Positions 5,520-52,554 of a DNA stretch of 64,000 bases are shown one piece after another. Below the pieces are notes generated by a model. It did not search any database. It saw nothing but the letters and a program-made list of their open reading frames with translations, and was not told where the DNA came from. The stretch is from Halobellus litoreus. GTDB taxonomy: Archaea > Halobacteriota > Halobacteria > Halobacteriales > Haloferacaceae. Location of the stretch: the NCBI RefSeq assembly GCF_024464595.1, contig NZ_JANHAW010000002.1, positions 62,001 to 126,000 of the forward strand, written 5' to 3'. Each line of letters begins with the position of its first letter. Positions within the stretch are counted from its first letter, which is position 1. The translations under genes and the position numbers were made by a program.

Positions 5520-5527
5520 TTTATATG
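5520..5527 (+). promoter_or_regulatory. TATA box of RNA-like element A
   Basis: TTTATATG lies exactly 30 bases before the GTG that opens element A. The same spacing (30 bases) occurs at the element near 50.69 kb, and a 28-base spacing at the one near 38.98 kb. The position fits an archaeal TATA box that starts transcription at the element's first bases. Confidence 0.6.
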
Positions 5528-5549
5528 CGATCGGGCGGCCATCCTTCCC

Positions 5550-5690
5550 GTGCGCTGACGCTGGCCTCGCGTCGGGCGCGGTTGTTCGGCACGTCGACGC
5601 GGGGGACGGTCGTCGTCGCGGGCGCGGGCGGGTCGCGCTTCGGCGTCGCGAGCGGTGTGCCGACTGTTCGCCCATTCTGCGACCCGCTTC
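5550..5690 (+). ncRNA. Candidate structured RNA, element A
   Basis: This stretch has no plausible ORF but closely matches the stretch at 50692-50826. Shared parts are the GTGNNCTGA opening (5550-5558), a block of about 36 bases at 5567-5602 that differs from its partner by three bases and one gap, and the closing segment GTGCCGACTGTTCGCC (5657-5672). TCGGCAC (5586-5592) can pair with GTGCCGA (5657-5663), and inside that CGACGC (5595-5600) can pair with GCGTCG (5643-5648). It has its own TATA box. Downstream, a small hairpin CCGCT/AGCGG lies just before the bolA promoter. Function is unknown; a known RNA family cannot be excluded. Confidence 0.55.
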
Positions 5691-38944: not shown

Positions 38945-38952
38945 TTTTTACG
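38945..38952 (+). promoter_or_regulatory. TATA box of RNA-like element C
   Basis: TTTTTACG lies 28 bases (from its TTTA) before the GTG that opens element C. It corresponds to the boxes of elements A and B. Confidence 0.55.
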
Positions 38953-38974
38953 CCAGGACGAGACCACACCCGGC

Positions 38975-39070
38975 GTGACCTGAACGCGGGCCGCGACGGT
39001 CACGGCGGGTGCGCGGCGCGCCGTCGCGGCCGAAGCGGGACTGCGCCGCCTGTTCGCCACCGTCGTCAGC
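38975..39070 (+). ncRNA. Candidate structured RNA, element C
   Basis: This gap sequence opens with GTGACCTGAACG (38975-38986), which differs by one base from element B. It ends with CTGTTCGCCAC (39050-39060), identical to B. The middle differs: GGCCGCGACGG (38989-38999) is an exact 11-base inverted repeat with CCGTCGCGGCC (39021-39031). In addition GTGACC (38975-38980) can pair with GGTCAC (38998-39003), overlapping the first stem, so two foldings compete. No ORF is plausible. It lies downstream of rtcB on the opposite strand. Confidence 0.5.
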
Positions 39071-39102: not shown

Positions 39103-40620
39103 TCAGCCCTTGATGTTGCAGACGGGGAACGTCCGGGCGACCTTGTCGCCGATTCCCAACTCGTCGGAGACGCGAACGACCTCGTCGACGTCCTTGTAGA
39201 CGCCCGGCGCCTCCTCGGCGACCGTCGCGCCCGACTGCGCCTTCACGTAGATCTTCTCCTGATCGCGGAGTTCGTCTCGGACCGTCTCGCCCCAGTACTC
39301 GTTCTTCGCCTGCGTCCGACTCATCGTCCGACCGGCGCCGTGCGCCGTCGACCCGAAGGACACCTCCAGAGAGCGCTCGCCGCCGCGGAGGACGTACGAA
39401 CCGGCTCCCATACTGCCGGGGATGATGATCGGCTGGCCCACGTCGCGATAGGTGGCCGGCAGTTCCGGTCGGCCGGCGGGGAACGCGCGCGTCGCGCCCT
39501 TCCGGTGGACGTAGAGCTCCCGCTCCGCGCGATCCACCGCGTCGTCGGGCGCGGCGGGTCGACCGTCGTCGTCGACGCCGACCTCGTGCACTTCTTTCTT
39601 CCCGATGTTGTGCGCGACGTCGTAGAGCAGTTCCATCTCCATCGACTCCCAGTCGCGGTCGAAGACCCGCTCGAAGACGCGCCGAGTCCGGTGCATAATC
39701 AGCTGCCGGTTCACCCACGCGAAGTTGATCGCGGCGCACATCGCCCCGTAGTACCTCTCGGCCAACTCCGAGCCCGCGGGAGCGGCCGCCAGTTCCTTGT
39801 CCGGAAGCTCGGCGAGGAGATCGGCGTGCTCCTGTTCGATCCGTCGGAGGTAATCCGTACAGATCTGGTGACCCAGGCCGCGGGACCCACAATGGATCAG
39901 GACCACGATCTGATCGGCTTCGAGTCCAAACTCCGCGGCGACCTCCGGGCGAAAGACGTCGGTGACGCGCTGGACCTCCAGGAAGTGGTTCCCGGAGCCG
40001 AGGCTGCCGATCTGGTTCTTCCCGCGGTCCTTGGCCTTCTGCGAGACCGCGTCCGGGTCGGCGTCGGGCCGCATTCCCTCGTCCTCGCAGTGTGTGAGGT
40101 CCTCCTCGACGGCGTACCCGTGTTCGAGCGCCCAGTCGACGCCGCGATCAAGGATCTCTTCGAGCGTGTCGCGGTCGGATTCGACGATGCCGCCGCCGCC
40201 GAGTCCCGACGGCACGTTCGCGAAGAGGGCGTCGACGAGTTCCTCCTCGTGGCCGACGACGTCGTCGTAGGTCAGGTTCGTCCGCATCATCCTGACCCCG
40301 CAGTTGATGTCGTAGCCGATCGCCCCCGGCGAGATACAGCCCGTCTCCACGTCCGTCGCGCCGACGCCGCCGACGGGGAACCCGTAGCCCTGGTGCCCGT
40401 CGGGCATACAGATCGCGTGATCCGCGATCCCCGGCAGATGCGTCGCGTTTCTGAGCTGCTGGAGGGTCTTGTCGTCGCCGATCTGTTCGAGCAGCGCGTC
40501 GCTGGCGAGGACGCGCGCGGGGACGTTCATCTCCCCCTCGCGTGGAATCTCCCAGACGTACTCTCGGACTCGTTCCAAGCGGATGCCGCCGTATTCGCGG
40601 ACGTCCCGATTGTCGCTCAT
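39103..40620 (-). CDS. rtcB: RtcB tRNA-splicing ligase
   Basis: RtcB joins RNA ends with 2',3'-cyclic phosphate and 5'-OH, used in archaeal tRNA splicing and RNA repair with GTP and Mn2+. The 505-residue protein has the full set of motifs: HAICMPDGHQGYGFPVGG, AIGYDINCGVRMMRTNL (metal Asp and Cys), LIHCGSRGLGHQICTDYL and FGSTAHGAGRTMSRTQAK. The C-terminal GVYKDVDEVV and PVCNIKG are also family features; the family's His nucleophile lies in the AHGAGR region. Transcribed alone. Element C is in its downstream gap. Confidence 0.97.
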   Translation of the reverse strand: MSDNRDVREYGGIRLERVREYVWEIPREGEMNVPARVLASDALLEQIGDDKTLQQLRNATHLPGIADHAICMPDGHQGYGFPVGGVGATDVETGCISPGAIGYDINCGVRMMRTNLTYDDVVGHEEELVDALFANVPSGLGGGGIVESDRDTLEEILDRGVDWALEHGYAVEEDLTHCEDEGMRPDADPDAVSQKAKDRGKNQIGSLGSGNHFLEVQRVTDVFRPEVAAEFGLEADQIVVLIHCGSRGLGHQICTDYLRRIEQEHADLLAELPDKELAAAPAGSELAERYYGAMCAAINFAWVNRQLIMHRTRRVFERVFDRDWESMEMELLYDVAHNIGKKEVHEVGVDDDGRPAAPDDAVDRAERELYVHRKGATRAFPAGRPELPATYRDVGQPIIIPGSMGAGSYVLRGGERSLEVSFGSTAHGAGRTMSRTQAKNEYWGETVRDELRDQEKIYVKAQSGATVAEEAPGVYKDVDEVVRVSDELGIGDKVARTFPVCNIKG

Positions 40621-50661: not shown

Positions 50662-50669
50662 TTTATCAG
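50662..50669 (+). promoter_or_regulatory. TATA box of RNA-like element B
   Basis: TTTATCAG lies exactly 30 bases before the GTG of element B, the same distance as in element A. Confidence 0.6.
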
Positions 50670-50691
50670 CGATCCCGGGACCAGCACCCCC

Positions 50692-50838
50692 GTGATCTGA
50701 ACGCCACCCCGCGTCGGGTCGCGGTTGCTCGGCACGTCGGCGCGGGACAGAGCCGACGCTCCCGCCGTTGCTGCCGTCCTCAGCGCCGGCGATGCCGTCG
50801 ACCTGCGGGTGCCGACTGTTCGCCACGGCAACGCGACC
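50692..50838 (+). ncRNA. Candidate structured RNA, element B
   Basis: This intergenic stretch opens GTGATCTGAACG (50692-50703), carries the central block matching element A (50711-50746) and ends CTGTTCGCCAC (50816-50826). TCGGCAC (50729-50735) can pair with GTGCCGA (50809-50815), and GTCGGCGC (50736-50743) with GCGCCGGC (50783-50790, one G-U pair). In the equivalent helix of element A one base pair is A-U instead of G-C, a compensatory change. A 5' hairpin GTGATC (50692-50697)/GGTCGC (50717-50722) is also possible with two G-U pairs. It lies between a GNAT gene and the convergent elp3 stop. Confidence 0.6.
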
Positions 50839-50844
50839 CGGAAG

Positions 50845-52554
50845 TCACGACAGCGGCTTGGAGACGTACGGCCCGTCCTGGTGGTAGCCGAGCTTCTCCC
50901 GGTAGTACTCCCGCGCGCCGATGCCGGAGATGATCGCGAGTTTCCCGTAGCCGGCATCGGCGGCGAGTTCCTCCGCCCGGCGGATCAAGCGTCGCCCGTA
51001 GCCCCTGTGCTGCCACTCGCCCTCGCCGCTGCCGATGCCGGCCTCGCTCCCGTAGACGTGGAGTTCCCGGACGATAGCCGCGTCCGTCAGTTCTCGACGG
51101 ACCGGGTCGTTCGGGAATCGGAGCCGACAGAACCCGACGAGCAGATCCTCGACGGGGTCCTCGAACGCGAGGAAGTGCTCGGTCCCGCCGGCGACGTCGT
51201 AGGTCGTCACGTTCAACTCGACTCGCTCGGGGTCGGGGTCGGCCTCGTTCATCCCGGCCTCGCGGGCACGGATGTCTCGGAGGTCGATCCCCTTCTCTTC
51301 GGCCCGCTGCGCGGCGAGCTGCCGGAGGTTCGACTTCCAGACGCCGGCGTCGATGAAGTCCGCGGGGATGTCGCGTTGGACGCGCTGCAGTCGCGTGTAC
51401 TCTGGGATCATCCCCATCACCTCGCTCACGATCTCGGCGGCCTCCTCGTTGCCCAGCGGCTCGAACTCGTCGCGCCGCCACTGATCGTAGACACGCGTCC
51501 CGCGAACGACGAGCGTCGGGTAGATCTTGAGGTAGTCCGGGCGGTACTCCTCGCGCTCGAACAGTTGCCGGAAGTCCTCGAGGATCATCTCCTTCGTCAT
51601 CCCCGGTTGTCCCGGCATCATATGGAAGCCCACTTTGAAGCCGGAATCGCGGAGCCTGCGGTTCGCGTCGATCGACGCCTGCACGCCGTGACCGCGGTGC
51701 ATCTCGCGATTGATCCGCTCGTAGGTCGTCTGAACGCCGACCTCCACTTTGGTCGCGCCCAGATCCAGCATCCGGTCGATCTGCTCGGGATCGCACCAGT
51801 CGGGCTTCGTCTCGAACGTCGTGCCGATGTTCCGGATGTCGGCCGTCTCGTTCTCGGTGATCACGTCTTCGACGTAGCGGAACTCGACGTCCTCGGGGTC
51901 CGGCTTGAACGACTGATCCTCCGCTGGCGAGGGCTCGGAGTCGAGGTCGTAGTCGTTCAACGCCTCCAGGGCGCGCTTGACGAACCACTCCTGGTAGTCG
52001 TGGCTGCGCGCGGTCATCGTCCCGCCCATCAGGATGAGTTCGACTTTGTCGACGGGGTGCCCGATGTGTCGCAGCTGTTCGAGGCGGAGCGTCACCTGTC
52101 CGTAGGGGTCGTACTCGTTCTGCTCGCCGCGCGCTGCGGCCGGTTCGTGGCCCGTGTAGGACTGCGCGGAGTCGAACTCCGAGGCCGGACCGCCCGGACA
52201 GTAGAGGCACTTCCCGTGCGGACACATCTGCGGCGAGGTCATAATCGCCACCGGGGAGACGCCCGAAGCGGTTCGGACGGGCTTGCGCTGGACGACCTCC
52301 TTGACCTCCTCGCGTCGACCCTGCGGCGCGTGCTGGAGGATCTCCGCGTTCTTCGGGACCTTCGGCGAGGAATGCGTCGAGCAGGCGTCGAGCTTCGCGG
52401 ACTCCAGATCGTCGCGTCCGACGTCGCCGTCCAGGATCCGCTGAACGAGGTCCTCGCAGGTGCGTCGGAACGCCTCGGTCTCCGTCGGGTCTGATTCCCC
52501 CTCTGACCCGGGCTCGGGATCGGCGTCGGCGCTCACCGGCGAAGCACCTCCCAC
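50845..52554 (-). CDS. elp3: tRNA uridine-34 acetyltransferase Elp3
   Basis: Archaeal Elp3 makes the carboxymethyl-type modification of wobble uridine 34 in tRNA using acetyl-CoA and SAM. The 569-residue protein has an N-terminal helical and tRNA-binding part, the radical-SAM region with CPHGKCLYCPGGPASEFDSA holding the cluster cysteines (CX4CX2C), GGTMTARSHDYQEWF and MPGQPGMTKEMILEDF, and a C-terminal GNAT domain with YGRRLIRRAEELAADAGYGK and REYYREKLGYHQDGPYVSK. Length fits archaeal Elp3. The start at 52554 may be about 18 bases later (GTG). Element B lies in its downstream gap. Confidence 0.96.
   Translation of the reverse strand: MGGASPVSADADPEPGSEGESDPTETEAFRRTCEDLVQRILDGDVGRDDLESAKLDACSTHSSPKVPKNAEILQHAPQGRREEVKEVVQRKPVRTASGVSPVAIMTSPQMCPHGKCLYCPGGPASEFDSAQSYTGHEPAAARGEQNEYDPYGQVTLRLEQLRHIGHPVDKVELILMGGTMTARSHDYQEWFVKRALEALNDYDLDSEPSPAEDQSFKPDPEDVEFRYVEDVITENETADIRNIGTTFETKPDWCDPEQIDRMLDLGATKVEVGVQTTYERINREMHRGHGVQASIDANRRLRDSGFKVGFHMMPGQPGMTKEMILEDFRQLFEREEYRPDYLKIYPTLVVRGTRVYDQWRRDEFEPLGNEEAAEIVSEVMGMIPEYTRLQRVQRDIPADFIDAGVWKSNLRQLAAQRAEEKGIDLRDIRAREAGMNEADPDPERVELNVTTYDVAGGTEHFLAFEDPVEDLLVGFCRLRFPNDPVRRELTDAAIVRELHVYGSEAGIGSGEGEWQHRGYGRRLIRRAEELAADAGYGKLAIISGIGAREYYREKLGYHQDGPYVSKPLS

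Follow-up and report, generated by a model that had tools for sequence, protein, structure and literature searches.

A multicopy family of haloarchaeal pseudoknot RNAs with a conserved start-stop reading frame at the 5' end and a possible role in ribosome docking

The 64,000-nt stretch of the Halobellus litoreus genome analysed here (the window) contains three related intergenic elements on the forward strand, A (5550-5672), B (50692-50826) and C (38975-39060). Element A precedes a BolA gene, B sits between GNAT and Elp3 genes, and C sits between a DUF7385 gene and RtcB; the gene families that adjoin the three elements differ from one another. The positions of the elements, their common closing sequence and the TATA-like boxes in front of them had been recorded in a first-pass annotation of the window, and all were correct on direct reading of the sequence. 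Element C lies tail-to-tail with the RtcB RNA ligase gene (39103-40620) and B with the gene for an Elp3-type tRNA modification enzyme (50845-52554); these RNA-related neighbours are possibly a matter of chance.

Element A is preceded by a TATA box, TTTATAT (5520-5526), whose first T lies 30 nt 5' of codon 1 in agreement with the family-wide spacing, and by the CCA of an RCCA box (5539-5541; positions -11 to -9), recognized from the sequence and its conservation in the family. The predicted RNA 5' end coincides with a minimal open reading frame (ORF), GTG-CGC-TGA (5550-5558), assigned from the sequence and by family comparison. For the remainder, fold and covariation predict a pseudoknot, in which the 5' strand of stem S1, CCTCGCGTCG (5565-5574), pairs with the 3' strand CGACGCGGGG (5595-5604), and the 5' strand of stem S2, TCGGCAC (5586-5592), located inside the S1 loop, pairs with GTGCCGA (5657-5663); the variable loop L3 (5605-5656; alignment and fold) is expanded to 52 nt, and the element closes with the conserved 3' tail CTGTTCGCC (5664-5672; sequence and alignment).

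The same order of features, assigned on the same kinds of evidence, is found in the other two elements. Element B comprises a TATA-like box TTTATC (50662-50667), the CCA of the RCCA box (50681-50683), the minimal ORF GTG-ATC-TGA (50692-50700), S1 (50708-50717 paired with 50737-50746) with the S2 5' strand (50729-50735) in its loop, the S2 3' strand (50809-50815) and the tail CTGTTCGCC (50816-50824). Element C comprises a TATA-like box TTTTTA (38945-38950), the CCA of the RCCA box (38964-38966), the minimal ORF GTG-ACC-TGA (38975-38983; sequence and covariance search), S1 (38989-38999 paired with 39021-39031), the S2 strands GCGGCGC (39013-39019) and GCGCCGC (39043-39049), and the tail CTGTTCGCC (39050-39058).

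With element A as query, blastn gave 43 matches in the H. litoreus genome (3.86 Mb), and 40 stretches were collected and aligned. A covariance model of the promoter and 5' half (R1), built from these own-genome members, detected 51 strong copies (E<1e-9), with a clear gap between E=8.5e-10 and the next hit at E=0.003; significance within the window was reached by A (E=2.6e-24), B (5.9e-27) and C (9.9e-14) alone. In view of the 43 blastn matches and 51 covariance hits, the likeness of A, B and C is not due to chance, and a prokaryotic small RNA with 51 strong copies in a single genome is unusual. No tRNA or tmRNA was detected. An Rfam match to a known RNA would have spoken against a new family, as had been pointed out in the first-pass annotation; Rfam 15 gave no gathering-threshold match for the window region or for a compact Haloferax member, and only chance-level hits (E up to 10) were obtained. 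Literature searches returned no described haloarchaeal multicopy RNA family and no archaeal minimal ORFs. The elements, here termed start-stop RNAs, are almost certainly a real structured RNA family, which appears to be undescribed; judged from sequence comparison, A, B and C represent copies of a haloarchaeal standalone small RNA gene of about 80 nt that is longer in Halobellus.

The covariance search proposed in the first-pass annotation was extended to other haloarchaeal genomes and found many further members. Model R1 gave matches at E<=0.001 in 94 of 119 genomes of the taxonomic family and in 173 of 243 genomes of the Halobacteriales. Weak hits in one family (f7; E ~1e-3 to 1e-5) resemble compositional background in the sensitive search, and the prevalence count was therefore restricted to E<=1e-6, which leaves start-stop RNAs in at least 133 of the 243 sampled Halobacteriales genomes; three genomes of family f7 (G202, G294 and G316) contain clear members. 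With a full-length covariance model (R2), applied to a phylum-wide sample of 247 genomes, matches were confined to the Halobacteriales (strong in 24 of 43), and none was found in the approximately 204 genomes outside this order. Carriers recognized by a pattern of pseudoknot and tail only include Haloferax, Haloarcula, Halorubrum, Natronomonas, Halobellus, Haloglomus, Halomarina, Haloarchaeobius, Halegenticoccus and Salinigranum. Each of the Haloferax genomes searched has two strong copies, at the low end of a range that extends to the 51 of H. litoreus.

The fold common to the family is a compact H-type pseudoknot with an S1 of 9-11 bp and an S2 of 7 bp, the latter formed by the S1 loop and the 3' end. 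Loop L1 is usually 11-12 nt long with a core GCGRNNGY, L3 measures 26-146 nt in most Halobellus copies and mostly about 7 nt elsewhere, and the 3' tail follows the consensus CTG-YYN-GC (CTGTTCGCC-like). The stem sequences have been largely rewritten between genera with the pairing preserved; even within the window, S1 and S2 of element C differ from those of A and B at many positions, yet they are fully paired. Among 53 diverse sequences, 93.6% of the alignment cells at the predicted pairs were paired (S2, 98.6%; 0/500 shuffles), with double compensations in 15 of 17 pairs and 134 doubly compensated cells, as against 30 +/- 4.9 after shuffling (0/500 shuffles reached the observed number); when the partner was moved by one column, pairing fell to about 30%. 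The compensatory changes thus go beyond the shuffled control, as is expected of a structured RNA family. The block of about 36 bases shared by A and B, which had been noticed in the first-pass annotation, is indeed shared; it is the first stem of the pseudoknot together with its loop, not a plain repeat. The proposal of dispersed structured RNA genes with promoters of their own also held, through the covariation, the fixed TATA distance, the mostly convergent downstream genes and the order-wide occurrence.

Known classes of small RNA were considered for the family. C/D box sRNAs carry C (RUGAUGA) and D (CUGA) boxes near both ends, which form a K-turn; this class was rejected for the 5' GTGATCTGA, which varies to GTGACGTAG, ATGCTCTAA and others, for a 3' end without a C/D pair, and for the lack of an Rfam hit. 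H/ACA sRNAs carry an ACA box near the 3' end and a hairpin with a pseudouridylation pocket, and were rejected for a tail (CTG-YYN-GC) without conserved ACA and for the H-type pseudoknot fold. Pairing of the tail with the loop was rejected by eye, with a variable tail (TTCG, TCAG, TCCG) facing a constant loop GCG. Some own-genome copies (among L009-L046) have L3 hairpin modules in common, e.g. the GAGCGGCCGCCAGT module of L015, L019, L032 and L035, and these modules look as though they had been exchanged between copies.

The best conserved part of the RNA is its 5' GTGNNCTGA, which constitutes a minimal ORF of a start codon, one free sense codon and a stop codon. Of 186 distinct members, 164 start with GTG and 18 with ATG, T standing at +2 in all 186 and G at +3 in 182; the third codon is a stop in 182 members (TGA 154, TAG 16, TAA 12) and never TGG; and the second, for which 30 different sense codons were seen, varies freely at each of its three positions. 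Positions 1-3 and 7-9 have a high relative entropy, positions 5-6 and 10-15 a low one, and position 4 (mostly A) lies in between. Under column independence, and with relatedness ignored, about 14.5 TGG codons would be expected at codon 3 in the first 127 parsed members, and the test for a minimal ORF gave a Fisher p of 3e-16 (members treated as unrelated). The TAA and TAG codons occur in 12 distinct codon contexts over many genera, hence the stop changes arose repeatedly. A later, independent set of start-stop RNAs had the stop at codon 3 in 60/60. A model that also covers the 5' end is biased towards members in which the ORF is kept, and this bias was addressed with a set collected by pseudoknot and tail only, blind to the 5' end, in which the stop was found at codon 3 in 32/36 members and at codon 4 in two more.

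Single loci follow the same rule. Two Halegenticoccus members contain one inserted codon followed by TGA, with the start-to-stem distance unchanged. At one orthologous locus in Haloferax the sequence reads GTG CGT TGA or GTG CGA TAG, with the codons swapped and the stop retained, and at a second locus it reads GTG CTG TAA, GTG ACG TGA or ACG ATG TGA, again with the stop retained; in the two Haloferax species in which codon 1 is ACG, codon 2 is ATG and is directly followed by TGA. Exceptions are the four of 186 members that are without a stop at codon 3, two of which (Natronomonas) are without any near stop, the four of 186 members with ATC, ATA or GTC as codon 1, and in addition one member with GTG ATC TGC and one Haloferax copy with ATT CTG TGA. 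The two Natronomonas members (L192, L211) read GTG CTC GAC TCG with promoter and pseudoknot intact.

Comparison of the members thus makes it very probable that selection acts on the minimal ORF as an ORF. The first-pass annotation had correctly noted a 5' GTG-NNC-TGA common to A, B and C; it missed its meaning as an ORF at the codon level, as well as the pseudoknot, and its statement that no ORF was plausible did not hold, for the codon statistics of the 186 members identify this very triplet of codons as the selected ORF. Noncoding RNAs are usually told from coding RNAs by the absence of a conserved ORF; in start-stop RNAs, otherwise noncoding, an ORF of the shortest useful length is what is conserved best.

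Each member has its own TATA box, the first T of which lies 30-31 nt 5' of codon 1 in nearly all members scored, a distance to be expected for transcription that starts at codon 1 itself. The RCCA box at -11 to -9 was present in all genera seen (176 of the 186 distinct members have C at -11, and 160 have A at -9), and is possibly the site for a dedicated regulator or a TFB variant. The box is G+C-rich where haloarchaeal promoters usually carry an A/T-rich element. A strict TATA plus RCCA pattern occurred in the H. litoreus genome at family members only (10/10); as it was not found at other genes of this genome, it gave no hint of a wider regulon. The single promoter type throughout suggests that the set of start-stop RNAs is probably co-regulated.

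Leaderless translation is the main route of initiation in haloarchaea, and we know of no RNA that is dedicated to it. In H. volcanii, 72% of the protein-coding transcripts are leaderless (PMC4983044), and toeprints of complexes resembling 70S initiation complexes were mapped to +15/16 (PMC6104027). In start-stop RNAs, the S1 5' strand ends 25-26 nt from the start codon in 111/127 members, and the first S1 base lies at about +16/+17 counted from the first base of the start codon (about 15-16 nt after it). The stretch from the 5' end to the pseudoknot would therefore exactly accommodate a ribosome with the start codon in its P site; this agreement of S1 with the published toeprint, which is drawn from sequence positions, is the main support for the reading that we prefer.

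We propose, with a probability of roughly 0.55, that a start-stop RNA, as a standalone RNA, takes up a ribosome at its leaderless start-stop ORF and keeps it positioned against the pseudoknot. From the features above we infer transcription, ribosome binding and a physiological role as follows. The transcript would begin on the start codon, and a ribosome would initiate at this GUG or AUG without a leader. As long as the start codon occupies the P site, the leading edge of the ribosome would touch the first S1 base pair; one elongation step at most would then bring the stop codon into the A site, with the mRNA entry channel blocked by the pseudoknot. Such an RNA might thereby park the ribosome or control its release, and thus could sequester or meter ribosomes. 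With tens of copies in some genera, the family might act in trans, docking ribosomes as a decoy or braking translation; alternatively, the docked ribosome might serve as a platform for some function of the exposed loop (GCGRNNGY) and the tail. Against docking count the exceptional members listed above and the fact that 88% of the members have a GUG start, despite the weak translation published for leaderless GUG starts, e.g. 2.6% of AUG in one test (PMC4983044). Confidence in any specific physiological role is low. A new class of small RNA, defined by a leaderless minimal ORF, whose paralogues hold ribosomes for a co-regulated tuning of the free ribosome pool or of leaderless translation, can be suggested only tentatively; if true, haloarchaea would possess a co-regulated RNA system for this tuning. 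Haloferax is genetically tractable and has its two copies at fixed loci, and a clean double deletion is feasible.

Components of this proposal have counterparts in known systems. Two-codon minigenes (E. coli/lambda) and eukaryotic AUG-stop uORFs hold ribosomes or peptidyl-tRNA, and like start-stop RNAs they have the stop directly after the start or after one codon; unlike these synthetic, phage or mRNA-leader elements, the ORF of start-stop RNAs forms the conserved 5' terminus of a structured RNA that stands alone and occurs in many copies. Recoding sites, such as those for retroviral stop-codon readthrough, consist of a stop, a spacer of about 7 nt and an H-type pseudoknot that faces the entry channel of the ribosome; start-stop RNAs have these parts in the same order, with the pseudoknot predicted to lie at the channel; the latter, however, have no conserved downstream coding frame, and their inserted codon keeps the start-to-pseudoknot, not the stop-to-pseudoknot, distance. 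The ribosome-associated ncRNAs of H. volcanii, rancRNA_s194 and Hts4, are associated with polysomes and inhibit translation in vitro (PMC6104027, PMC8938821); s194 binds the 50S subunit, and BLAST found it in no other haloarchaeon (PMC3956466). Many untranslated small RNAs of H. volcanii show ribosome occupancy (PMC12482152); neither for these nor for s194 and Hts4 does the description mention a family with a minimal ORF. Start-stop RNAs resemble s194 and Hts4 as small intergenic haloarchaeal RNAs of 70-100 nt, and are predicted to act likewise; compared by description only, s194 and Hts4 differ in that they were described individually, and that neither a family nor a conserved ORF or pseudoknot has been reported for them. 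Possible members of the start-stop family among the H. volcanii sRNAs would be Hts4, IG1.7/htsf242, H225.2R and hts10.

The main rival to docking is an insulated noncoding RNA, whose pseudoknot and tail work apart from translation and whose early stop only protects the fold from leaderless ribosomes. A structured RNA that starts with GTG would need such protection in an organism with leaderless translation, and the members without a canonical start (ATC, ATA, GTC or ATT, including four of the 186) keep the stop. Yet the loss of the start TG would suffice for insulation, while T at +2 is invariant and G at +3 nearly so; two Haloferax orthologues gain an ATG at codon 2 upon the loss of codon 1; and S1 begins at the edge of the ribosome. 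We consider insulation possible and rather unlikely.

It is more doubtful still that the 5' GTGNNCTGA is a motif for protein binding or transcription initiation that merely resembles a start-stop ORF. The RCCA box at -11 is an extra conserved element in the promoter region of the family, and the form GTG ACG TAG recurs often, both of which would suit such a motif; it would explain neither the interchange of TGA, TAG and TAA with TGG absent, nor that of GTG and ATG at the start, nor a codon 2 that is free at all three positions, nor the in-frame stop retained after a codon-sized insertion.

It is very improbable that the element regulates the downstream gene in cis, as a leader, riboswitch or attenuator whose leader peptide is encoded by the minimal ORF. 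Minimal ORF and structure do resemble an attenuator, and the downstream gene is co-directional in a minority of 22/82 loci (loci of 3-8 kb counted); it is convergent in 60/82, which contradicts such a leader for most members, and the BolA gene next to A has its own TATA box and start. The convergent downstream genes and the varied neighbours, including those of A, B and C, indicate a standalone element. A dispersed, MITE-like mobile or parasitic repeat, suggested by a copy number that can reach about 50 in a single genome, is equally improbable, since the copies are diverged yet structurally compensated, no match was found in collections of plasmids, phages and viral contigs, Haloferax holds just two strong copies at fixed loci, and two loci, with neighbours of the HAD-type hydrolase and YcaO families, are syntenic between H. 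litoreus and Haloferax (identity of the neighbouring proteins, 65% and 51%), which points to long vertical retention and argues against recent mobility.

Three genomes with the same genus label (G005, G104 and G109) yielded zero members and far fewer first-look candidates in the R1 search; these genomes may be compositionally different, or may have lost the family.
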